Below are positions 38,344-59,305 of a stretch of 64,000 nucleotides of DNA, piece after piece. Below the pieces are notes generated by a model. It searched no databases, was not told the DNA's origin, and saw only the letters and a list, made by a program, of their open reading frames with translations. Position numbers and translations under genes: made by a program. How positions within the stretch are numbered: position 1 is the stretch's first letter; every line of letters starts with the position of its first letter. Origin of the DNA: Deltaproteobacteria bacterium. GTDB lineage: Bacteria; Myxococcota_A; Polyangia; DRWM01; JAAZOP01. Where the stretch lies: the NCBI GenBank assembly GCA_016218765.1, contig JACRCZ010000033.1, positions 1 through 64,000 on the forward strand, given 5' to 3'.

Positions 38344-39993
38344 CTACGGGGCGATGAAGCTGATCGGCAGGCGGACGCGGAAATCGCCGCCCTCGGGCGG
38401 GCTCGCCGTAAAGTTGAGCGACCGGAGCCGCCCGGAAATGCAGCTCGTGACGCCCGCGGCGTTCAACGCCGAGTCGTCGCTCGCGACCTCGACGCTCACG
38501 CTGCCCTGCTGGTTGATCACGATGATGAAGGTCAGGTCGCCCGAGAGCGTGGGGTCGCGCGACAACGCGTTGTTGTAGCAGGCCTCGATGGCGCCGCGCT
38601 TCTGCTGCAGTTTCTGCTGGAAGACGCTGCCGCTCATGCGGCCCGAGCCGCCGGCCGGCGAGCCGCCGCTGGTGCGGACCTTGCCCTTCTTGATCTCCTT
38701 GGTCTCGACCTTCGCCACCTCGGTGTGGACCGGCACCACCGCGGGTCCGGTCCCGGCAGCACCCTCGGTCCCGGTGCCCCCGATCTCGCCCACCGCGGGG
38801 CCCGAGGCGATGAAGTTGCCCGGAGTGGTGGAGTAGCCGCCGGCGCCGCCGCCCTCGGTCGTGCCGGCCGCCCCCTCCATCGCTCCCATCAGGTCGGTCA
38901 CGGCGCCGCCGACGCCGCCGAACTCCGTGCCGATGCCCATCACCGGGCCCGTGCCGTCGCCGCCGCCGAGGAGATTCTCGAGGTTGAGGCTGTTCTCGAC
39001 CTTGGCACCGATCGAGGCGATCTGGCCCTGGGTCAGCGACTCCCCGCCGATACTGACTCGGTTGGGATCCGGGCCGCGGCGCGTCGGGCCGGTCTCGGGC
39101 TTGACCTCGGTCACCGCGGCCTCGGGCGCCACCTCGCCGGTGTCGCCCGTCGTGGGCGTCTCCTCTCCGGTCTGTTCCCCCTCCCCCGGCTTCGTCTCCC
39201 CCTCGTCGCTCTCGTCGTCCTCGGGCTCCACTTCGGAAGCCGTCACGACCTGGATGTTGACCGGGGAGAAGTCCCCGGCGAGGATCTCGTCGAGCGTCGG
39301 CTTGGGCCACTCGGGGATCATCACGCCGCAGAACAGGCCGACGTGGATCGCGAAGGCGGCGCCCAGCGAGTACATGAAGCCGCCGTCCAGGCGGGCGATC
39401 CAGCCGCCGCGGACGGAAGCCGGGAGCTGCGGCCGGGGCTGGATGGGGGGCGGGACGACGAACTGGAACAGCATCGTCGTGTCGCCGATGACCACCTTGC
39501 CCTTGCAGTCCTCGGTCAGCGCCACCTGCGTGCCGCGGGAACCGGGGAGCGCCTTCTTGGAGGCACGGATCGCGGCGAGGTCCATCACCCCGCCGTCGGC
39601 GGCGGGGAACGCGACGCGCCCGGACATCTCCGGCGCGATCGTGAGGAAGTACTGATCGCCCTTGGGGCCGCCCGGACGCAGCTCGAAGAGCGGGAAACGG
39701 CCGGGCACGGAGGCGTGCGGAGTGACGAAGTGGTTCTTCTCCGACTGGCCGACGGTGACCGTCTCGCGCAGGCGGATGATCCGCTCCTCGATGATGCGCG
39801 CGCCCTGGATGACGCCGATGCGCAGGACCTTCGGGACGTTGGCCTGCAACGCGGCCATGGCGGCGGCGCCGCGGCGGATCACCCGCGGCTTGCCGTCCGG
39901 CCCGCGAACGACGCGGATCGGCTTGGGACGCTTGGCCATGCCGGGTGCGGCCGGGCCACCCTTCGCAACGGGCTGTACGCTTGGCTTGTTCAT
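38344..39993 (-). CDS. AgmX/PglI C-terminal-domain protein with FHA-like N-domain (GltG-like)
   Basis: 549 residues. The cytoplasmic N-terminal part includes an FHA-like beta domain (about 54-182: VLRIGVIQGARIIEERIIR, TVTVGQSEKNHFVT), then a single membrane segment (about 205-227). In the periplasm follow an acidic linker, a Gly-rich spacer and a TonB-like AgmX/PglI domain (about 455-549: RGAIEACYNNALSRDPTLSG, LTFIIVINQQGSVSVEV, paired cysteines, SLNFTASPPEGGDFRVRLP). The same layout is known in GltG/GltJ of the Myxococcus gliding machine, where the protein links the Agl motor to outer-membrane parts. It is the last gene after ExbB-ExbD-ExbD. The identification with GltG is by architecture and context, not by alignment. 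Confidence 0.82.
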   Translation of the reverse strand: MNKPSVQPVAKGGPAAPGMAKRPKPIRVVRGPDGKPRVIRRGAAAMAALQANVPKVLRIGVIQGARIIEERIIRLRETVTVGQSEKNHFVTPHASVPGRFPLFELRPGGPKGDQYFLTIAPEMSGRVAFPAADGGVMDLAAIRASKKALPGSRGTQVALTEDCKGKVVIGDTTMLFQFVVPPPIQPRPQLPASVRGGWIARLDGGFMYSLGAAFAIHVGLFCGVMIPEWPKPTLDEILAGDFSPVNIQVVTASEVEPEDDESDEGETKPGEGEQTGEETPTTGDTGEVAPEAAVTEVKPETGPTRRGPDPNRVSIGGESLTQGQIASIGAKVENSLNLENLLGGGDGTGPVMGIGTEFGGVGGAVTDLMGAMEGAAGTTEGGGAGGYSTTPGNFIASGPAVGEIGGTGTEGAAGTGPAVVPVHTEVAKVETKEIKKGKVRTSGGSPAGGSGRMSGSVFQQKLQQKRGAIEACYNNALSRDPTLSGDLTFIIVINQQGSVSVEVASDDSALNAAGVTSCISGRLRSLNFTASPPEGGDFRVRLPISFIAP

Positions 39994-40075
39994 CGTGTTT
40001 CGGCCCCCTGTCGTGCCGTGACCGGCGAGGTTGCGGGGTCCGTACGAGCGGAAAGGTTCGCGGGATCTCTCCGGA

Positions 40076-40693
40076 CTAGTCCTTCATCGCCGTGACCGTC
40101 CGGACGATCGCGAACATGTACCGCTGGTACCCCGCCTCCTTGGCCGTGTACAGCACCTCCTTGATGATCCGGACGGGCGTGTGAATGTCCGCGACGATGA
40201 GCAGCCAATCCTTCGTCGAGTACGCCCGCCCGGTCCGACGCTCGACCTCGCCCAGCTGCTGCTTGTACGCATCAAGCTGCGCCCGGAGGTCCTCGATGAG
40301 GTAGCTCGACTTGCCGCCGGCCTTCGCCTTCTCATCGACCGTCCGGACCCCGTTCTCCTCGCGCAGCAGCGCCGAGCGCTGCTGGTTGCAGTAGATCGCA
40401 TCCGCTTGGATCTCGACGCGGGCCGCACCTTGGATCTCGAGCTTGCTGGAGGAGAATGCGACCTGGAGCTTGTCGTTCTGGTTGATGCTGATGGGCTCCA
40501 TCGCGTAGTTGGACATGAGGAAGGAGAGGATGATGGTCATGGCGTCCATCAGCGACGTGATCGCCAGGCCGACCGGGGGAAGGTCCGAGTGGCCCTTCTT
40601 CTGCTTCTTCTTGGCCAGATAAGCGGCATCGAGCTGGATCCCCTGCTCGACTTCGGGAGGCGGTTGATTCGGCGGCTGCTGCTCGTAGCTCAT
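40076..40693 (-). CDS. ExbD/TolR-family motor subunit (Asp-containing)
   Basis: 205 residues. A Pro/Gln-rich cytoplasmic N-terminus with a basic patch (AKKKQKK), one TM helix (about 40-62, AITSLMDAMTIILSFLMS) and a periplasmic domain with a coiled-coil part (SSYLIEDLRAQLDAYKQQLGEVE) and the ExbD-like end DWLLIVADIHTPVRIIKEVLYTAKEAGY. The protonatable Asp of the ExbD/TolR/MotB family is present in the helix (D50). Works as the peg of a proton-driven motor with the ExbB/TolQ channel protein. AglS/AglQ-like by context. The ATG at 40693 (GGAGGG upstream) is preferred to a TTG three codons earlier. Confidence 0.9.
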   Translation of the reverse strand: MSYEQQPPNQPPPEVEQGIQLDAAYLAKKKQKKGHSDLPPVGLAITSLMDAMTIILSFLMSNYAMEPISINQNDKLQVAFSSSKLEIQGAARVEIQADAIYCNQQRSALLREENGVRTVDEKAKAGGKSSYLIEDLRAQLDAYKQQLGEVERRTGRAYSTKDWLLIVADIHTPVRIIKEVLYTAKEAGYQRYMFAIVRTVTAMKD

Positions 40694-40719
40694 CGGTCCC
40701 AAACCCTCCGCCGAGCCCC

Positions 40720-40740
40720 GGCGATCCTTGGAGGATCGCC
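40720..40740 (-). other. Intercistronic hairpin between the two exbD-like genes
   Basis: GGCGATCC-TTGGA-GGATCGCC, an 8-bp perfect stem with a five-base loop in the 100-bp gap. No U-tract. It could stabilise or process the mRNA and set different levels of the two subunits; inferred. Confidence 0.5.
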
Positions 40741-40793
40741 CTGAAGCCCGGCTTGGTACTCCCCCGGCGCCGGAGGTTCCCGAGCGCGGGAGA

Positions 40794-41576
40794 TTAATTC
40801 ACGAACCCGACCACCGGGAAAAGCAGCTCCTTCTTCATGGCGTCCTTCCAGGTCTTCGGATCCAGGAACGGGTCGGTCACGCCACCCTCGATCGCTTCCT
40901 TGACTTCGGTGATGAACGCCTCGTCCTTCTGCCAGTCGTAATCGAACGCGCGGAACCTGGAAAAGTCCATGAGTCCGACGAGTTGGCAGTACGGGATGTC
41001 ATCCTCGGACTTGATGTTGATCTGGTCCTTGTCGTCGAGCTGATCACCGAACGCCTGCGCCACCCGGTCCTTGATGTTGCGCAGGTTGATGTTGAACCCC
41101 TTCAGGTCCGGGATCTTGACCTGTCCGGCCGGGTTCTTCCAGCAGATGCTGACGAACTTCTCCAGGTACCCCCAGTAGGCGCAGTCATTGAACTCCCGGG
41201 GATCGGCGGGCGGCTGGCACTTGGAACCCTCGCTGCGGATCTCGTCCAGCGACATCGCCTTGTGCGCCAGGTCGACGCGGCCTTTCGTGCCGGTCGAAAC
41301 GTCCTCCGGCATCACGTCCTGGGCGACGTCCCGGCCCGCCATGAGGGTGATCGAGCCCTTCGTGAGGATCGCCACCAGACGGAGCCTCTTCTGCTCCTCC
41401 GACTGGCGCCCCTTGGACGTCCCGCCCTCGGCTCCGCGCAGGACCGTGATCTGGCCGAAGGTGACCCACGTCGTGACCCAGAGCATGAGCGGGATCAAGA
41501 CGCAGACCAGGTTCATGACGGGGACCAGATCCGGATCCTCGTACCCGCCGACGTCCTTCTTCATCTTGCCTGCCAT
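40794..41576 (-). CDS. ExbD/TolR-family motor subunit (Asn in place of Asp)
   Basis: 260 residues. Short cytoplasmic N-terminus, one TM helix (about 17-38: LVPVMNLVCVLIPLMLWVTT) and a large periplasmic domain with several cysteines (SKCQPPADPREFNDCAYWG, SICWKN, PYCQL). At the position where ExbD/TolR/MotB proteins carry the proton-accepting Asp, this protein has Asn (N22, codon AAC). A hetero-pair with the Asp-bearing subunit encoded next to it is likely, as in AglQ/AglS, with only one proton-carrying residue per pair. GGAGG lies eight bases before the ATG. Confidence 0.85.
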   Translation of the reverse strand: MAGKMKKDVGGYEDPDLVPVMNLVCVLIPLMLWVTTWVTFGQITVLRGAEGGTSKGRQSEEQKRLRLVAILTKGSITLMAGRDVAQDVMPEDVSTGTKGRVDLAHKAMSLDEIRSEGSKCQPPADPREFNDCAYWGYLEKFVSICWKNPAGQVKIPDLKGFNINLRNIKDRVAQAFGDQLDDKDQINIKSEDDIPYCQLVGLMDFSRFRAFDYDWQKDEAFITEVKEAIEGGVTDPFLDPKTWKDAMKKELLFPVVGFVN

Positions 41577-41709
41577 CGCCGAACCTCCTCGCGCCGACTT
41601 CGCCTTGCGGGCTTCGTCGGCCAGGGCTGCCGTGTCACGATCGACTCCGGCAAGCCCGGCCCGCCTTTGCCCTCACGGGCGACGGCGGGCCATCGCACGG
41701 CGCGGGCCG

Positions 41710-42363
41710 CTACTGCTGCGGCGCGCCCAACTGGCCGTGCGCGCGCGCCACCAGGAGGTTCTCGAGCTTGGTCGAGTACTGGTCGATCTCGTCGAGAATC
41801 TTCTTGGTGACGCCGGCGAGCACGAGGTACGCGGCCAGCGTCGGGATGGCGATGATCAGCCCGAACGCGGTCGTGTTCATGGCGACGGCGATGCCCTGCA
41901 TCAGCAGGGTCGAGCGCTCTTCCTGGCTCGCGACCTTGGACGCGGCGAACGCGAGGATGAGGCCCGTGATCGTTCCCAGCAGGCCCATCAGGGTGGCGAT
42001 GGAGGCGACCGGCGGCAGGGAGCCGGTGCGCTTCTGGACCATCGGCACGACCTCGAGCTGCGCCTCGGACAGCGCGTTCGAGATCTCCACCTCGCCCTTG
42101 TTGGCCCGCATCAGGCCGGCCTTGAGCACGCGCGCCAGCGCGGCGTTCGGCGCGGCGTTGCACAGCTTGATCGCGCGGTCGATGTTGTTCGCCATGACCA
42201 GCTTCTGGATCTGCGCCCAGAACTGCGTGGCGTTGATGTTGAAGCGGAAGAGCAGGAAGATGGTGCGCTCGATGATCAGCGCGACCGCTGCGACGGACGG
42301 AAGGATGATCAGCCACATCCAGATCGCGCCCTGCCCTTGGAATGCACCCTTGATGTAATCCAT
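41710..42363 (-). CDS. MotA/TolQ/ExbB-family proton channel (AglR-like)
   Basis: 217 residues with three TM helices (about 13-35, 120-142, 155-180). The family core LPPVASIATLMGLLGTITGL and the conserved MNTTAFGLIIAIPTLAAYL give the Thr/Gly/Pro positions of the ExbB proton path. With ExbD-like subunits it makes a proton-driven force generator in the inner membrane. GAGGAGG precedes the ATG at 42363. Followed by two exbD-like genes and a GltG-like gene, the order of the myxobacterial Agl motor; it could equally serve an Nfs-type spore-coat machine or an unassigned envelope motor. Confidence 0.93.
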   Translation of the reverse strand: MDYIKGAFQGQGAIWMWLIILPSVAAVALIIERTIFLLFRFNINATQFWAQIQKLVMANNIDRAIKLCNAAPNAALARVLKAGLMRANKGEVEISNALSEAQLEVVPMVQKRTGSLPPVASIATLMGLLGTITGLILAFAASKVASQEERSTLLMQGIAVAMNTTAFGLIIAIPTLAAYLVLAGVTKKILDEIDQYSTKLENLLVARAHGQLGAPQQ

Positions 42364-52105: not shown

Positions 52106-54397
52106 CTACGGCCAGTTGTCGGAGACCGTGAAGTCGGCCAGGTCGACCCGGATCAGCCCGTCGCTGGAGGAGTCCACGACCAGGAGGGCCGGGCCGGTGC
52201 CCGTCGTGACGTCCAGGGCCTCCGCGACCGGGAGCGAGCCGGTCTCGACCGACAACGCCGCGAAACCACCGGTCGCGTCCAGCTCCCAGCGCATCCCCCG
52301 CGGCGTCGCCACGGTCCCCGCGTCCATCGTGAAACAGAGGAAGGGGTTCTTGTGGATCACGCCGTCGGTCGCGCGGCCGTCGTGCAGGCAGCGCACGTCC
52401 ACCGGCTCCGTCGTGCAGTTCTCGTACGGCGTGCAGATCGCGTCGTCCGGGAACTCGATGCACAAGCCGGGCACGTCGTCCGTCGGATCCGGGTCCTCGC
52501 CCACCGTCACGTGGTGCTGGAACCCGGTCGCCTCGCCCCGCACCAGCCACCGCCCCCCGACCCGGACCTCGTAGCGCACCGCCCAGGGGAAGCACTCGCG
52601 CGTCGGCAAGGGATCCGTGTTGCCGTCGGCCCCGACGACGGTTTCGAGCAACAACCGGTCGGCCCGCGCCTCGACGATCCGGTACTCGAGCTCCGCCTCC
52701 TGGCCGACGGCGCCCCAAGCCGAGCAATCGGTCGCTTCGGAGAGCGGGTCCGGGCCGTCCTTGATGATCAGGATGTCGCCGGCCAGGACGCCGCGGGCGC
52801 AGAACGGCATCGCGCGGTCCCTGAACCAGCCGGCGTCGCCGACCTGTCCGCCATTCCCGTCGGTCCACGGAACGACGCCCTCGTACTCCACGATCCACGT
52901 CTGGCTGACCGCGCGGCGGGGGTGCACGGTGTCGAAGAGGACGCCCCAGGTGGGGTCGCCCTCGGCGGTTTCCCCGCCGAAGTCGTGGAAGCGGGGGTAC
53001 TCGTCGGGCGGCGCGCCCGAGTACGACAGGGCCGCGCCGCTAGCCTGGAAAAGCGACGGCGGCTCGTCGGACCAGCGCGGCCCCTCGGCACCGGCGATGC
53101 CGTTGCGCAGGACGTGGCGGGGACAGGCGGACTCGACGTAGCTGCCCTCGCCCGCCGCGGCGCCGTCCCAGCACGCGGCGTTGCCGTGGTCCTCGACGTC
53201 GACCGCGAAAACCTCGCCGAACGACGAGACGACGAACCCGAACGTGCCGTGCATCACCTCCGGCTCGGGATCGGCCGGGTCCGGCACGGGATCCTGCGCG
53301 ATCCGGCCGAGGAGCACGTCCTGCGCCAGGCCGGGAACGATGAGCTCGTTGCGCCACTCCAGCGGGTCGCCGGTGGACATATCGATGGCGGCCAGGGTCT
53401 CGGCGTCGAGGACCATCACGCCGCGCGAGCTGCCGTCGACGGCGTAGATCCAGCGGCCGGGCTCGTCGCCCGCCGGACCCCTCCCCGGGGGCTCGATCGC
53501 CATCGCGACGGACGGTCCGGGAAGCTGGAACGGGTCGGGAGCGTGGGCGGCCACCGTGAGGGCGAACGCGTCGTCCCAGGTCAGCACGGCCAGCCAGGGA
53601 GCGGCGCGGTCGCCGACGACCAGCCGGCCGCGGACGTCGTCGACCAGGATCGACCAGGGCACGCCCAGACCGGGCAACGGGTCGCCCTCGGGGTCCAACA
53701 GCGGGAAGGGGTCGAGCACGACCGGGGGCCCGACGACCGGGGTTTCCCCGAGCGTCACGACCGCGACGGCGGAGAGCCCGGGCAGCGTCACGACGACATG
53801 GGTGGCATCGAGATAGGCGACGTTGGAGGCCGGGACGGGGAGCGGGACGCGCGAAAGGAAGGGACGGCCGGCGTCCAGCGAGATGCGCGGGAGGAGGTTG
53901 GCCGGGTTGACGATCGACAGGAACGGCACGCCGTCGGGGTTGGTCGGGTCGTCGCCGGGCCGGGGGTCGCCGAGGTTGGCGACGGCGAGCGAGGAGCCGT
54001 CGGGGGCCGCGGCAATGGCGTTGGGGAGGGGGCCGACGACGACGGGCGAGGAGAGGGGCTGGCGAAGGTCGAGGTCGAGCAGGCGGCGGTCGCGCAGGTT
54101 CACGGCCGCCAGCTCGCCGCGGTAGCGCTGGACGACGAAGGCGAAGAGGTCGCCGTCGAGGTCCTTGGCGCACTGATCCATCGTCGTGCCGGCCCAGGTG
54201 GTCGTCCCGTCCTCGTGCCGCGTCTCCAGGGCGCAGAGCAGCGCGACGTCCGAGGCGCTGTCCATCTGCCGCGTCGTGGTCTCGACGGCCGCGCTCTCGC
54301 AGCCGCACCAGAGCAGAGCGGAAAGAGCGGGAAGAGCGGCGAGTGCGGGGAGCCGGACGGGATCCGCTGCGAGCGTGCGCGGCATCGTCCTACTCAT
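52106..54397 (-). CDS. Large beta-propeller-like lipoprotein
   Basis: 763 residues. Lipoprotein signal (PALAALPALSALLWCGC), encoded by a GA-rich simple repeat of the kind seen at 1431-1484. The N-terminal 430 residues show propeller blades of YVTN/NHL type (LPNAIAAAPDGSSLAVANLG, WSILVDDVRGRLVVGDRAA, RWIYAVDGSSRGVMVLDAE); the rest has paired cysteines (CTPYENCTTEPVDVRC) and strands of unknown fold. Its ATG overlaps the stop of the upstream lipoprotein by 8 bp, so the pair is translationally coupled. Function unknown; outer-membrane surface or periplasmic face expected. Confidence 0.78.
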   Translation of the reverse strand: MSRTMPRTLAADPVRLPALAALPALSALLWCGCESAAVETTTRQMDSASDVALLCALETRHEDGTTTWAGTTMDQCAKDLDGDLFAFVVQRYRGELAAVNLRDRRLLDLDLRQPLSSPVVVGPLPNAIAAAPDGSSLAVANLGDPRPGDDPTNPDGVPFLSIVNPANLLPRISLDAGRPFLSRVPLPVPASNVAYLDATHVVVTLPGLSAVAVVTLGETPVVGPPVVLDPFPLLDPEGDPLPGLGVPWSILVDDVRGRLVVGDRAAPWLAVLTWDDAFALTVAAHAPDPFQLPGPSVAMAIEPPGRGPAGDEPGRWIYAVDGSSRGVMVLDAETLAAIDMSTGDPLEWRNELIVPGLAQDVLLGRIAQDPVPDPADPEPEVMHGTFGFVVSSFGEVFAVDVEDHGNAACWDGAAAGEGSYVESACPRHVLRNGIAGAEGPRWSDEPPSLFQASGAALSYSGAPPDEYPRFHDFGGETAEGDPTWGVLFDTVHPRRAVSQTWIVEYEGVVPWTDGNGGQVGDAGWFRDRAMPFCARGVLAGDILIIKDGPDPLSEATDCSAWGAVGQEAELEYRIVEARADRLLLETVVGADGNTDPLPTRECFPWAVRYEVRVGGRWLVRGEATGFQHHVTVGEDPDPTDDVPGLCIEFPDDAICTPYENCTTEPVDVRCLHDGRATDGVIHKNPFLCFTMDAGTVATPRGMRWELDATGGFAALSVETGSLPVAEALDVTTGTGPALLVVDSSSDGLIRVDLADFTVSDNWP

Positions 54398-55757
54398 GGC
54401 TCGTCGGCGGCTCCGGCGTCCCGATTTCCAGGACGGTCCGGGCGAAGTCGGCGCCGCCCGGGGTGAAGTCGAGGACCCACACCGTGGATTCGCCGAAGTT
54501 GCCGAGGTACGCGCGCCCGCGCGCGGGATCGGGGACGATGGCGTGCGGGCCCATGCCCGTGCGGAAGACGTCCACGACCGCCAACAGGTCGGGGTCGATG
54601 ACGAAGACCTCCTCGGCGTCGAAACACACGACCAGGACGACGTACTCGCCGTCCGCCAGGGGCAGCATGACGAGCCGGGACGGGCCGCCGCCCAGGTCCA
54701 GCGTGGCCAGCGTGGAGCCGTCGACCGAGCCGTCCTCGCGCAACGTCGTGTCCAGGACGACCACGCTGGGCGGCTCGCGGTTGGCCACGAAGGCGCGCGT
54801 GCCGTCCGGACTGAAGGCGAGCGAGCGGGAGTCGGTGCCGGGATCGTTCGAGTCGACGGCGATGCTGGGGCCGGTCGAAACGGCCGGACCCTCGCCCGCC
54901 TGCCGGCTCTCCATGCTCATGAGGAACGGATAGAGCCGCGTGGAATAGCGGCTGACGAGCCAGTACCAGGCGGGATCCTGGGATTCGTCGCGCGGGGTGC
55001 CCGGATCGTCCAGCCGCGGCTGCCGCGCGAAGCCGTTGACGCCCTCGGGGAAGACGTCCAGCACCCGGACCAGGCTCGGGTCACCGCCTTCCCGGACGTC
55101 GAAGACCGCGACGTCCCCGGAGTCGACGTGGCCGGTGAACACCCAGTCGCGGTCGACCAGCAGCGCGTAGGGCTCCGTCGGCAGCCACAAGTCGCCGTTG
55201 CGGATGACCTCGTGCCCGCCATCGCACCGCCGAAGGCCGGGGCTCGGGTCGCCGAAGCACGACAGCACGCGCGCCCCCGACGCGGCGTCCTCGTCCAGGT
55301 CGAACCAGGTGAGTGAGGCGTTGCCGCGGACCGCGGCGTAGGCGCGCCGCCCGTCCGGGGCGATCGCCAGATCGGTCACCTGCGAGCCGATGATCACGGT
55401 GTGGCGCCCGGCGCTCTCGTTGCGCTCGTCCAGGGTCGGGGCCGCCGGATCGTACCCGGCGAAGAACTGCGCCTCGTCCCGCGGCCCGCGACAGCGGCCG
55501 AGGCAGCTCTCGATCTCGGCATCGACCACGGCCAGGTCGATGACGTCGACGGTGCCGGAGTTGTACCGCAAGTCGAAGTTGGAGTTCGCGACCAGGAGGT
55601 ACCGCCCGCCGGGGCTGAGGGCGAGGCCCGTGGGGTAGAAGAAGCGGTGCCCGGGCGGATCGATCCCGCCCGAACCGAAGCAGCCCGCAAGCGCAGCCGC
55701 GGCGGCCGACGCCGCGAGCGCGAAACGGACGGATCGACGGGCCTTCCCCGGTCGCAT
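54390..55757 (-). CDS. YVTN-type beta-propeller lipoprotein
   Basis: 455 residues. Lipobox ALAGC (Cys26). Repeating blades of YVTN type: GHRFFYPTGLALSPGGRYLL, DLAIAPDGRRAYAAVRGN, SLAFSPDGTRAFVANREPPS, GPHAIVPDPARGRAYLGNFG. Several cysteines (SCLGRC, SCFGDP) may be disulfide-bonded. Seven blades would fit the length. Propellers of this type are protein- or glycan-binding platforms; no catalytic residues are evident. It overlaps the next lipoprotein gene and lies 29 bp after fliQ. Confidence 0.82.
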   Translation of the reverse strand: MRPGKARRSVRFALAASAAAAALAGCFGSGGIDPPGHRFFYPTGLALSPGGRYLLVANSNFDLRYNSGTVDVIDLAVVDAEIESCLGRCRGPRDEAQFFAGYDPAAPTLDERNESAGRHTVIIGSQVTDLAIAPDGRRAYAAVRGNASLTWFDLDEDAASGARVLSCFGDPSPGLRRCDGGHEVIRNGDLWLPTEPYALLVDRDWVFTGHVDSGDVAVFDVREGGDPSLVRVLDVFPEGVNGFARQPRLDDPGTPRDESQDPAWYWLVSRYSTRLYPFLMSMESRQAGEGPAVSTGPSIAVDSNDPGTDSRSLAFSPDGTRAFVANREPPSVVVLDTTLREDGSVDGSTLATLDLGGGPSRLVMLPLADGEYVVLVVCFDAEEVFVIDPDLLAVVDVFRTGMGPHAIVPDPARGRAYLGNFGESTVWVLDFTPGGADFARTVLEIGTPEPPTSHE

Positions 55758-55786: not shown

Positions 55787-56032
55787 CTACGGCAAGTGGG
55801 AGAAAAGACGGGACGCGAGACGGACGATCTCGCCGCCCATCCACGCACCGGACACGGCGAGCGCCACCGAGACGGCAAGGATCTTGGGCACGAACGACAA
55901 GGCATGATCCTGGATCTGCGTCACCGCCTGCAGGAACGACACCACCAGCCCCACCAGCAGGCTCGCCGCCAGCACCGGCAACGACAGCACCAGCGACAAC
56001 ACCAGCGCGTCCCGAGCCAACTGAAGGACCAT
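55787..56032 (-). CDS. fliQ: FliQ/SctS-family export-gate subunit, orphan
   Basis: 81 residues, two TM helices with the central motif of FliQ: QAVTQIQDHALSFVPKILAV and the end SGAWMGGEIVRLASRLFSHLP. In flagellar and type III secretion systems four FliQ subunits wrap the FliP-FliR core of the export gate. The LSFVPK form is closer to FliQ than to SctS. GGGGGAAA precedes the ATG. None of fliP, fliR, flhA, flhB or any needle or rod gene is in the window. The gene lies inside a long minus-strand array of Glt/Agl-like genes, between a GltJ-like gene and a propeller lipoprotein. Either the rest of a gate is encoded elsewhere, or this is a repurposed FliQ. Confidence 0.9.
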   Translation of the reverse strand: MVLQLARDALVLSLVLSLPVLAASLLVGLVVSFLQAVTQIQDHALSFVPKILAVSVALAVSGAWMGGEIVRLASRLFSHLP

Positions 56033-56064
56033 CCCTGTTTCCCCCTTCCCCTTCCCCCTCCCCC

Positions 56065-56145
56065 TTCTCAGCGTTCCTCTCGGCGCCCTCAGTGCCTCAG
56101 CGGTAAGTCGGATCTCCGCGCCCTCCCCCCCCTCCGCGCGCCCTC
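56065..56145. repeat. CTCAGCGTTCCTCTC repeat, copy 2
   Basis: Same orientation and about 85-90% identical over 60 bp to 18665-18747, continuing into CTCCGCGCCCTCC runs. It fills the 129-bp gap between the GltJ-like and fliQ genes. Confidence 0.65.
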
Positions 56146-56161
56146 CCCCCCGTCCGCGCCC

Positions 56162-57658
56162 TCACCTCTCATGGAACCCGAAAGGCAGCACGAGGCGCGT
56201 GGTCGCGCCCGCGCGCGGGAACTGCCAGGCCCGTACCTTGCCCACGATGCAGCTCTCGAGGTCGCCCGTGATGTAGTCCTCGCTGGCGATGGTGGCGCTG
56301 CGCACGGAGCCGTCGGGCGAGATCTCGAGCGTGAGGCGGAGCGCGAGGTCGCCGATGAAGTCGCGCTGGCGCGCCTGGGCGTAGCAGTGCTCGATCCCGC
56401 CCTTGCCGGCCGAGACGACCGGGAGGATCTGGTCGGTGCCGAGCGGTCGCGGCTGGTCCCCGCCGCCCGCGGCGAGCGGCCCGCCGCCGGTGCGGATCTG
56501 GCCGCCGACACCGATGTCGCGCCCCGGGAGGAAGGGCGGCGTCCCGGAGGAGCCGGACGTGCCCGAGGAGCCGGTGCGGCCGCCGTCGCCTCCCGAGGGA
56601 CGGGGGCGCGAGCCGGTCGAGCCGCCGGAGGAGGGCGTGGTCCCGGGCGTCCCCGGCTGGGCCGGGTTGACCTCCTCCTCGGCGACGATCGTGGGGTTGG
56701 TGAGCTGGATCGTGAGCGATCCGGAGCGGATGGTCGGCAGATTCGCCTCGACCGTTCCGGCCTCCTCGGCCGCGGCGATGCCGACGACGCCCTGCGTGTC
56801 GGCGGCGGCGGGGCTCGCGGCGCCGCCGGAGACGAGGTACATGAAGACCATGCCGAGGGCGAAGGCGATGACGGCGACGAGGCCGTGGACGAGCCAGCGG
56901 TTCCAGCCCGGGGTCGGCGGCACCAGGCTGGCGGACGTCGCGGTGGTGACCTTGGCGCCCGCCATCGGCGGGAGCTCGAAGACCGAGCCGCGCCAGGGCG
57001 CCCCGTCGGCGGCCGCGCCCTTCTTCGACGCGGCCTCGGCCAGGTAGCCCAGGTCGCGCACCTGGCCCAGCGGACGCCACTCGTCGAAGCCTTCGCGCCA
57101 GACCAGCGAGTTCAGCCCGACCTCGCCGTTGTCGATGTGACGCCGGATGGCTTCCTCGCTCATCGGGCCCATCGGCTGGTTGCGGATGGAGACGTGCCAG
57201 CGGGCGAGCTTGCGGGAGACCTCCTGCTTGACGGCCTCCTTGGCGGCGTCGCCCAGGAACGGGCTGGCGATGATGTGCGTGGCGTCGTCGGAGTCGGGCA
57301 GGGCCGCGGCGGGAGCCGCGGTGGGGGGTGCGGCTGCCGCGGCCAGGAGCGCCAGCTTTCCCGGCGCGGGGGTCTTCCCGGCGCCCTCGAACGCTTTCTG
57401 GAAGCGCTCGCCCAAGGCCCCGGCGGCCGCGGCGGGCGGGGACGAGTCGGCGGACTTGGCCAGGGGCGTCGCGATGCGCTCGCGGGGCCGCGCCGCGGGC
57501 GGCGGCGGCAGCGACGGCTGCGAGCCCGCGGGCAGGTTGGGATCGCGGACCTCGAGCACGTTGCCGCAGCCGCGACAACGGATCTTGACCGCCTTGCCGC
57601 GCAGACGCGCCTCGTCGATGTCGTACTTGGCCTTGCACCGGTCGCAAACGAATTGCAT
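56162..57658 (-). CDS. Zinc-ribbon/GYF/TM/AgmX-domain protein (GltJ-like)
   Basis: 498 residues. N-terminal zinc ribbon MQFVCDRC...CRGC (C5, C8, C28, C31), a Pro/Ala-rich linker, a GYF-type domain (about 153-200: WHVSIRNQPMGPMSEEAI, SLVWREGFDEWRPLG), one TM helix (about 254-277) and, in the periplasm, a Gly/Ser-rich linker and the AgmX/PglI TonB-like domain (about 400-498: GIEHCYAQARQRDFIGDLAL, SPDGSVRSATIASEDY, CIVGKVRAWQFP). This domain order is that of AgmX/GltJ of Myxococcus, the regulated switch linking cytoplasmic polarity proteins to the gliding machine. Next to a receiver-domain gene (18 bp gap), which suggests a signal input. Confidence 0.87.
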   Translation of the reverse strand: MQFVCDRCKAKYDIDEARLRGKAVKIRCRGCGNVLEVRDPNLPAGSQPSLPPPPAARPRERIATPLAKSADSSPPAAAAGALGERFQKAFEGAGKTPAPGKLALLAAAAAPPTAAPAAALPDSDDATHIIASPFLGDAAKEAVKQEVSRKLARWHVSIRNQPMGPMSEEAIRRHIDNGEVGLNSLVWREGFDEWRPLGQVRDLGYLAEAASKKGAAADGAPWRGSVFELPPMAGAKVTTATSASLVPPTPGWNRWLVHGLVAVIAFALGMVFMYLVSGGAASPAAADTQGVVGIAAAEEAGTVEANLPTIRSGSLTIQLTNPTIVAEEEVNPAQPGTPGTTPSSGGSTGSRPRPSGGDGGRTGSSGTSGSSGTPPFLPGRDIGVGGQIRTGGGPLAAGGGDQPRPLGTDQILPVVSAGKGGIEHCYAQARQRDFIGDLALRLTLEISPDGSVRSATIASEDYITGDLESCIVGKVRAWQFPRAGATTRLVLPFGFHER

Positions 57659-57676: not shown

Positions 57677-59305
57677 TCATAGCAACTTGAGCAGGTGCTC
57701 CTTGATCGAGGAACGCGCGGCCTCGTCGGTGGAGGCGTTCGCGGCCCGCTCCCACATTTCGACGGCCTTGAGCGGGAATCCCGCGTGCTCGTACAGCTGC
57801 CCGAGTCCGCGCAGCGTGCCGAAGTCGCCCGGCTCGAGTTCCAGCGCCCGCTCCAGCTCCTGGATGGCCTGGTAGATCCGGCCCTGGCGGCCGTAGAGGA
57901 TGCCGAGCTGGTAATGGAGCTGGTGCGACTGCGGGTCGGCGTCGACGCCGCGCACCAGGTGCACGACGGCACCCTCCAGGTCGCCGTCGCGATACTTGCG
58001 GATCCCCGCCGCCAGCTCCGCCTGCGCCTGCGCGCTCGGCTCGCGCGCGGCGACGGCGGCGGCGGGGGCGCCCGAGAGGATCTGCTCGACCTTCTCCGCC
58101 AGCTCGCCGATCTTGAACGGCTTCTCCATGAAGTGATCGACGCCGTAGGACTTCTTGAGGTCGGTCGCGAAACGCCAGCCGCGGTAGATGGCGCTGATCA
58201 TGATCACGGGGATGTGCGCGTAGCGGGTGGATTGCTTGAGCCGGCGGCACACGTCGAAGCCGTGGATCTCGGGGAGCATCGCGTCCAGGACGAGCAGGTC
58301 GGGCGGCTGCGCCTGGACCATGCGCAGCGCCTCCGCGCCATGACTCGCCTCGGTCACCTCGAACCCGCGGTCGCGCAGGACCCGCACCACGAGCTGCCGG
58401 ATGTCCGCCTCGTCGTCGACCACCAGCACGCGCCGGGGACGCGGCTCGCGGGACTCGGACGCTGCCGCGACCGGCGGCGTCGGAAGGCCCATCGCCTCCA
58501 GATCGATCGGCAGCACCGTGACGGGCGAGCGGGCAAGGTCGCCGGCGGCGGGCGACGCGCCGTGGGCGAAGACGATCGCCTGCTCGAGCCGCTCGGGCGG
58601 CGCCGCACCGGGCATGGCGTAGGTCCGATCCCCGGCGGCACGGCCGCGGTAGCAGGCGTCGAGGAAACGGCGGAGCTGGGAGTGGGGGGCGACGTGCGGC
58701 ACCAGCCGCAGGCCGGAGACGAACTCCAGCTCGTCCAGCGTCCGCTTCTGGCCGGGGTCGGCGACCGCCACCAGCAGGCGGTCGTCGCGCACCGCGAACG
58801 GCAGGATCAAGGAGCGCATCGCGATGTCCCGCGGCAGGAGGTCCAGCGTGGAGAGGTCGAACGTGACGCGGTCCAGGTCGACGGCCGGCACGCCGGTGTC
58901 GGCGGCCAGCGTCCGCAGGAACGCCGCCTTCGTGCCCTCGGACCGATCGCCCGTGTCCTCCTCGACCGCGTCCTCGGTCGCCGGCTCCGCGACGTCGATC
59001 CCGACGACGTCCACCTCGAGATCGAGCGAGCTCGGCGGGGGCGCGGACGCCACGGACGAGGCGAAGGGCAGCTCCGGGGGCGGCGCGGAGTCGGCCGCGG
59101 ACGGCGGCGGCGCGGAGGACGACGAGGAGTTGGCAGGTCCGAACGTCTCGTCGAACGAGCGGTCGAACGCCTCGTCGATATCCAGCCCGCCGCCCGAAGG
59201 CTCGCCCGTCGCACGCGGAGCGCCCGGCGACGCCGGCGCGGCCGGGGCGGCGCGGCGCCGCAACGTGATCTTGGCAAGCTGATGCTTGTCGCGAGAATCG
59301 GACAT
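57677..59305 (-). CDS. GspE-N-like/receiver/TPR regulator
   Basis: 542 residues, cytoplasmic. A disordered acidic start (1-120) is followed by a GspE N-terminal (MshEN-like) domain (about 125-220: AAFLRTLAADTGVPAVDLDR, LPFAVRDDRLLVAVADPGQKRT). Then come a complete response-regulator receiver (about 291-411) with acidic pocket D297/D298, phospho-acceptor D341 in VLDAMLP, S371 and K395 (EKPF), and a C-terminal TPR pair (about 430-542). No DNA-binding output, so it works by protein contact, probably on the GltJ-like protein encoded 18 bp downstream. The full MshEN c-di-GMP loop is not evident. No histidine kinase is in the window. GGGAGG lies nine bases before the ATG. Confidence 0.87.
   Translation of the reverse strand: MSDSRDKHQLAKITLRRRAAPAAPASPGAPRATGEPSGGGLDIDEAFDRSFDETFGPANSSSSSAPPPSAADSAPPPELPFASSVASAPPPSSLDLEVDVVGIDVAEPATEDAVEEDTGDRSEGTKAAFLRTLAADTGVPAVDLDRVTFDLSTLDLLPRDIAMRSLILPFAVRDDRLLVAVADPGQKRTLDELEFVSGLRLVPHVAPHSQLRRFLDACYRGRAAGDRTYAMPGAAPPERLEQAIVFAHGASPAAGDLARSPVTVLPIDLEAMGLPTPPVAAASESREPRPRRVLVVDDEADIRQLVVRVLRDRGFEVTEASHGAEALRMVQAQPPDLLVLDAMLPEIHGFDVCRRLKQSTRYAHIPVIMISAIYRGWRFATDLKKSYGVDHFMEKPFKIGELAEKVEQILSGAPAAAVAAREPSAQAQAELAAGIRKYRDGDLEGAVVHLVRGVDADPQSHQLHYQLGILYGRQGRIYQAIQELERALELEPGDFGTLRGLGQLYEHAGFPLKAVEMWERAANASTDEAARSSIKEHLLKLL

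Follow-up and report, generated by a model that had tools for sequence, protein, structure and literature searches.

An isolated FliQ-family gene beside a GltJ-like gene is most likely the SctS of a secretin-less myxobacterial type III secretion system with dispersed core genes

To our knowledge, type III genes almost always stand in clusters. In Myxococcus xanthus, a "needleless" type III secretion system (T3SS*, mxan_2434-2464) works together with the Kil/Tad pilus in prey lysis (PMC12075869), and a second such system in this bacterium has no part in prey killing (PMC12403147). Abby and Rocha described clustered long and short "Myxo" non-flagellar systems (NF-T3SS) in Cystobacterineae as a flagella-injectisome intermediate (PMC3459982), and the Bradymonadia are said to have T3SS* as well (PMC11509652). 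GltJ (AgmX), a member of another envelope apparatus that is relevant here, is part of the M. xanthus gliding machinery (PMC3169522).

The window, that is the whole stretch of 64,000 nucleotides that was analysed, belongs to genome bin G000, whose draft assembly of 5.9 Mb comprises 154 contigs (completeness 79.6%, contamination 1.6%). An earlier note on this DNA had reported a complete FliQ-family gene at 55787-56032 on the reverse strand, and this proved correct, as the 81-residue product matches Bac_export_3 (Pfam PF01313) over almost its full length with an E value of 2.1e-26. The protein scores 80.8 bits with the NCBIfam SctS model (TIGR01403), which is above the cut-off of 76.5, and 84.9 bits with the flagellar FliQ model, which is below the cut-off of 88.9. 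The genome bin has no second FliQ-family gene, and no further type III genes were seen among the gene calls of the whole window; these calls were made with a simple purpose-made codon-usage model, and thus start codons are approximate. Hereafter, we call this gene SctS, after one of the five subunits (SctRSTUV) that make up the export gate in the inner membrane. Three more genomes (G001, G002 and G003) represent the same genus, which makes four genus members in all. Between G000 and G003 the SctS protein is 100% identical, with a dN/dS of about 0.015, while across the genus dN/dS lies between 0.015 and 0.24. As the protein has stayed identical despite a pS of 0.30, SctS is a live gene, and it is confirmed to be real and under strong purifying selection.

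The same-strand flanks named in the earlier note were found as described. Directly upstream of SctS lies a GltJ-like gene (56162-57658, reverse strand), whose product carries Zn_ribbon_4 and GYF_2 domains, one hydrophobic stretch and an AgmX/PglI C-terminal tail. We considered whether this might be a true GltJ and rejected this idea, as it reaches 114 bits against an NCBIfam GltJ cut-off of 450. Downstream of SctS there is a gene for a propeller (Lactonase-like) lipoprotein (54390-55757, reverse strand), a position that is kept within the genus. The first gene of the trio that ends with SctS is located at 57677-59305, also on the reverse strand, and encodes an MshEN-REC-TPR protein (Pfam MshEN, 4e-20; Response_reg, 4.3e-24; TPR). 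The order MshEN-REC-TPR, GltJ-like, SctS and propeller lipoprotein is that of the genus, the G002 contig stopping inside the GltJ-like gene. From the GltJ-like stop to the SctS start there are 4 bases in G003, 14 in G001, 11 in G002 and 129 in G000, and in other species the distance is 4-26 bases. The 129-base spacer (56033-56161, reverse strand), which is of low complexity and G/A-rich on the coding strand, is a peculiarity of G000, its sister genomes having 4-14 bases at this place. SctS is probably co-transcribed with the GltJ-like and MshEN-REC-TPR genes, the three forming an apparent operon.

Outside the genus, a GltJ-like gene stands directly before SctS in G004 (family f2), in G047 (f15) and in G019 and G027 (f9, with SctT close by). 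The position beside gltJ-like genes, which the earlier note had suggested to check for conservation, was assessed in a locus set that includes a draw of 40 further loci from the class. A zinc-ribbon/GYF/AgmX-tail gene is located directly upstream in 20 of the 43 SctS loci without a neighbouring SctR, and these come from seven families (f1, 4/4; f2, 1/1; f9, 8/8; f15, 4/5; f22, 1/2, with the GYF/zinc part only; f25, 1/4; f27, 1/1). No such neighbour was found at stand-alone SctS genes of f12 (0/14), f16, f18, f26 and f28, and since f12, a Polyangiaceae-like family, lacks it at all 14 loci, systems of this kind can exist without the GltJ-like link. Where SctR stands beside SctS (class clusters, flagella and injectisomes), none of the 49 loci has a GltJ-like gene before SctS. 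An MshEN gene precedes the GltJ-like gene in 15 of the 20 loci, and several of the remaining loci stop at a contig edge. The 3.7 Mb of sequence that was fetched contains 15 GltJ-like ORFs of full length, and every one stands directly before SctS. This count is biased, as the profiles were built from SctS-adjacent genes, but they should also have matched paralogues with the same domains. As the counted loci are related and not independent draws, no p-value is attached to these figures. Judged from this comparison of sequences, the GltJ-like flank of SctS is not coincidental. Elsewhere in the window, a TolQ/ExbB-like gene, two small membrane-protein genes and a GltG-like gene with an AgmX tail occupy 38344-42363; this Glt/Agl-like set remains far under the curated Glt cut-offs.

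SctS had also been called an orphan. This is true locally only, because the window holds no type III neighbour of SctS, while homologues of FliP, FliR, FlhA and FlhB are located on other contigs of the same genome. One copy of each was found, namely FliP/SctR on contig C9, FliR/SctT on C107, FlhA/SctV on C22 and FlhB/SctU on C42. To these are added one YscJ_FliF lipoprotein of SctJ size (C144), whose best NCBIfam model is SctJ, one FliI/SctN ATPase over the subfamily cut-off (C98) and one SctQ with two SpoA matches (C148). SctR, S, T, U, V, J, N and Q are thus present as single copies on eight contigs, so that the SctRSTUV export gate is complete and is accompanied by SctN, SctJ and SctQ, as is characteristic of an NF-T3SS. 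A machine consisting of the export gate only had been considered, and was rejected once the latter three genes were found. SctL was not identified in G000. NCBIfam family scores lean towards Sct over Fli, with several subunits below the equivalog cut-offs. The NPTH motif of SctU and the Walker A motif of SctN (AGSGVGKS) are intact, and dN/dS is below 0.5 in all eight core genes within the genus (range 0.015-0.48).

Some neighbours of these genes deserve a mention. An ORF 33 bases before SctQ (L225 8400-8996, on C148) has a weak FliK/Flg_hook match (E = 0.0056) and is a possible SctP, which would be odd for a needleless machine. In the genus, the gene directly after SctJ encodes a protein of 879 residues that weakly matches an ion channel (L062 5947-8586, on C144; also L065 and L081). 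A DnaJ gene adjoins SctN in two families (L063 9443-10585, on C98; L075 10883-11992, in G016). Finally, an MshEN-domain gene directly follows SctR in all four genus members (L007 16176-17930, on C9; L045, L121 and L125), and as MshEN genes stand beside both SctR and SctS, two scattered gate genes adjoin putative c-di-GMP-binding proteins.

The dispersal of the core genes was judged from the contigs of a draft genome, in which exact distances between genes are not readable. In G003, whose contigs are longer, SctR, SctS, SctU, SctV, SctN and SctQ are spread over six contigs, and one contig carries both SctJ and SctT, about 11 kb from each other. The layout and the neighbours of the core genes are the same in the four genus members, G003 agreeing with G000, and G001 and G002 as far as their contigs reach. 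In other members of the class, SctR-S-T-U often form one cluster, 3' of rpsM-rpsK-rpsD-rpoA-rplQ and 5' of galU-priA-fmt, with SctV, SctJ, SctN-SctL and SctQ each located away from it. Examples are loci L051, L053, L055, L057 and L058, with the alpha ribosomal operon (rplQ) on one side of SctR-S-T-U and galU-priA-fmt on the other; L055 and L131 have a small FliO-like ORF before SctR. In the genus of the window SctU adjoins priA (L010, L043), and this adjacency is a relic of the rplQ / SctR-S-T-U / priA order; the housekeeping neighbours (rplQ, priA and others) were named from a reading of their translations.

A type III secretin (SctC) over the cut-off was found in none of 59 genomes. G000, which therefore shows no SctC by which an injectisome could be recognised, has two secretins only, PilQ in a PilMNOPQ locus and GspD in a Gsp locus. 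No Tad/Kil-type secretin was found in G000, and since there is no third secretin, a Kil-pilus route is doubtful in this genome. We built a main tree from concatenated SctRSTUV (35 rows, 1601 columns), and a quick tree likewise gave a non-flagellar branching. In the concatenated tree flagella are split from the remaining systems (support 100/100), the genus has G004, from the same order, as its partner (100/98), and both join G016, G040 and the compact (second) Archangium system (99/99). Three Myxococcia loci, called predation-type by their clustered gene content and not by comparison with M. xanthus itself, group with injectisomes (93/99), and the systems of the class form a grade outside this clade of predation-type T3SS* and injectisomes. 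The flagellar split is reproduced by the SctV-only tree, in which the genus is placed near the non-flagellar base (modest support, 88), apart from G004, G016 and G040. Because the inner placement differs there, we rely only on the flagellar/non-flagellar split and on the exclusion from the injectisome/predation-T3SS* clade. The SctS-only tree also gives a non-flagellar branching (91/84), from a short alignment of 97 columns that is too short for resolution. In the SctV-only tree G016, a member of the window's class, falls together with records of Labilithrix and Polyangiaceae, whose SctV neighbourhood it shares, and the class is therefore probably Polyangia. G004 and Deltaproteobacteria bacterium isolate Meg19_46_Bin_197 (JAFDER010000095.1) have identical SctV proteins (L126, L207).

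From these observations, we consider it highly probable that the gene at 55787-56032 is the SctS of a secretin-less myxobacterial NF-T3SS whose eight core genes are scattered singly round the genome. Several other explanations were weighed against this one. The dispersal might be an artefact of assembly or binning, produced by contig breaks or mixed genomes, as G000 is a bin of 154 contigs with 1.6% contamination and both SctR and SctJ lie near contig ends. However, the genes have the same neighbours in G001, G002 and G003, and parts also lie far apart in better assemblies of the class, namely at about five places in G046 (20 contigs) and about seven in G040 (30 contigs), which makes an artefact extremely unlikely. 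Even less credence, close to none, can be given to a flagellar FliQ of a split flagellar system, despite a score that is barely under the FliQ cut-off. No FliF of flagellar size was found in the four genus members, each genus genome has one SpoA protein or none (many flagellated members of the class have three), and in the trees the export genes group with non-flagellar systems. On the same grounds, the proposal of the earlier note that the gene may be a leftover of a split flagellar operon is not supported; a full flagellar set elsewhere in the genome, combined with a place of the 55787-56032 copy among flagellar FliQ proteins, was looked for, and this is not what we found.

It is also plausible to ask whether any machine works here at all, as a flagellar or T3SS operon might have been split and its pieces might now be in the course of being lost. 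The genes no longer form an operon, the secretin and the flagellar parts are absent, and similar M. xanthus loci have earlier been termed relics (PMC3459982). A decaying relic is nevertheless very unlikely given the purifying selection and the identity of SctS at a pS of 0.30: all eight core genes are intact, their motifs included, and they have been kept, again singly, by other members of the genus and by further families. Somewhat less remote, though still unlikely, is the idea that SctS, no longer part of the type III gate, has become a membrane subunit of an envelope machine of the GltJ-like/TolQR type, with a separate complex formed by the remaining gate genes. Its adjacency to the GltJ-like gene, conserved over seven families, fits this idea, as do the TolQ/ExbB-like and GltG-like genes of the window. 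On the other hand, there is no other SctS in the genome, and a gate without SctS would have to be postulated, yet SctR, SctT, SctU and SctV have all been retained under constraint; moreover, in f9 SctS shares its operon with a downstream SctT, and this binds SctS to the gate. The suggestion of the earlier note that the gene serves as a subunit of the envelope machine therefore stands in part only. The protein is most likely the SctS of a dispersed NF-T3SS, and a link between SctS and the GltJ-like gene is likely, because their adjacency is conserved over so many families.

If the dispersed NF-T3SS is accepted as the best explanation, a possible mode of action can be outlined. In known type III systems SctR, SctS and SctT make up the pore, SctU switches substrates, and SctV and SctN feed them. 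Proteins from the dispersed loci would then assemble into an SctN-driven SctRSTUV gate, which may export substrates across the inner membrane only or pass them to another outer-membrane route. REC domains are phosphate acceptors, and the MshEN domains of other proteins have c-di-GMP as their ligand. By analogy with GltJ, the GltJ-like and MshEN-REC-TPR pair might set where or when the gate assembles, acting via SctS of the SctR-S-T pore, and the cue could be a contact site, c-di-GMP or a phosphorelay signal. We put forward only tentatively, as a possibility that we hold to be rather doubtful, that the trio is a signal-driven module timing or placing gate assembly via SctS and that the dispersed systems are living descendants of the earliest NF-T3SS, dating from a time when secretins had not yet been recruited. 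Were the control-module reading true, a protein-export machine would be run by gliding-type spatial switches.

Literature searches that covered few subscription papers yielded no earlier account of a Polyangia T3SS in dispersed form, of the trio with SctS and the GltJ-like gene, or of a GltJ with a GYF domain. Each core gene stands singly among housekeeping genes, yet is conserved. The "Myxo" intermediate is widened from a few Cystobacterineae to many families near the non-flagellar base, and the order of events (gate first, secretin later) thus becomes testable. The SctS/GltJ-like/MshEN trio ties a type III gate to a gliding-type envelope protein family, and it offers an entry point for finding what secretin-less machines export.

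The system of the window resembles the needleless Myxo T3SS* in having a non-flagellar gate, SctJ, SctN and SctQ, in lacking a secretin, in its occurrence in Myxococcota and in its deep position on the non-flagellar side. The needleless systems are, however, encoded by clustered loci (here L138, L146, L149 and L187), whereas the eight core genes of the window system stand apart, and the predation-type T3SS* branches with injectisomes, with the window system outside. The T3SS of Chlamydiales (PMC3459982) is likewise non-flagellar and spread over several loci, and it is functional there; it has a secretin and a needle and occupies a few multi-gene loci, in contrast to the single core genes and the missing secretin of the window system. 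As for the neighbour of SctS, it shares with GltJ (PMC3169522) a zinc ribbon, a GYF domain and an AgmX/PglI tail, but differs from it in its score, which falls far under the GltJ cut-off, and in standing in an apparent operon with the MshEN-REC-TPR gene and SctS.
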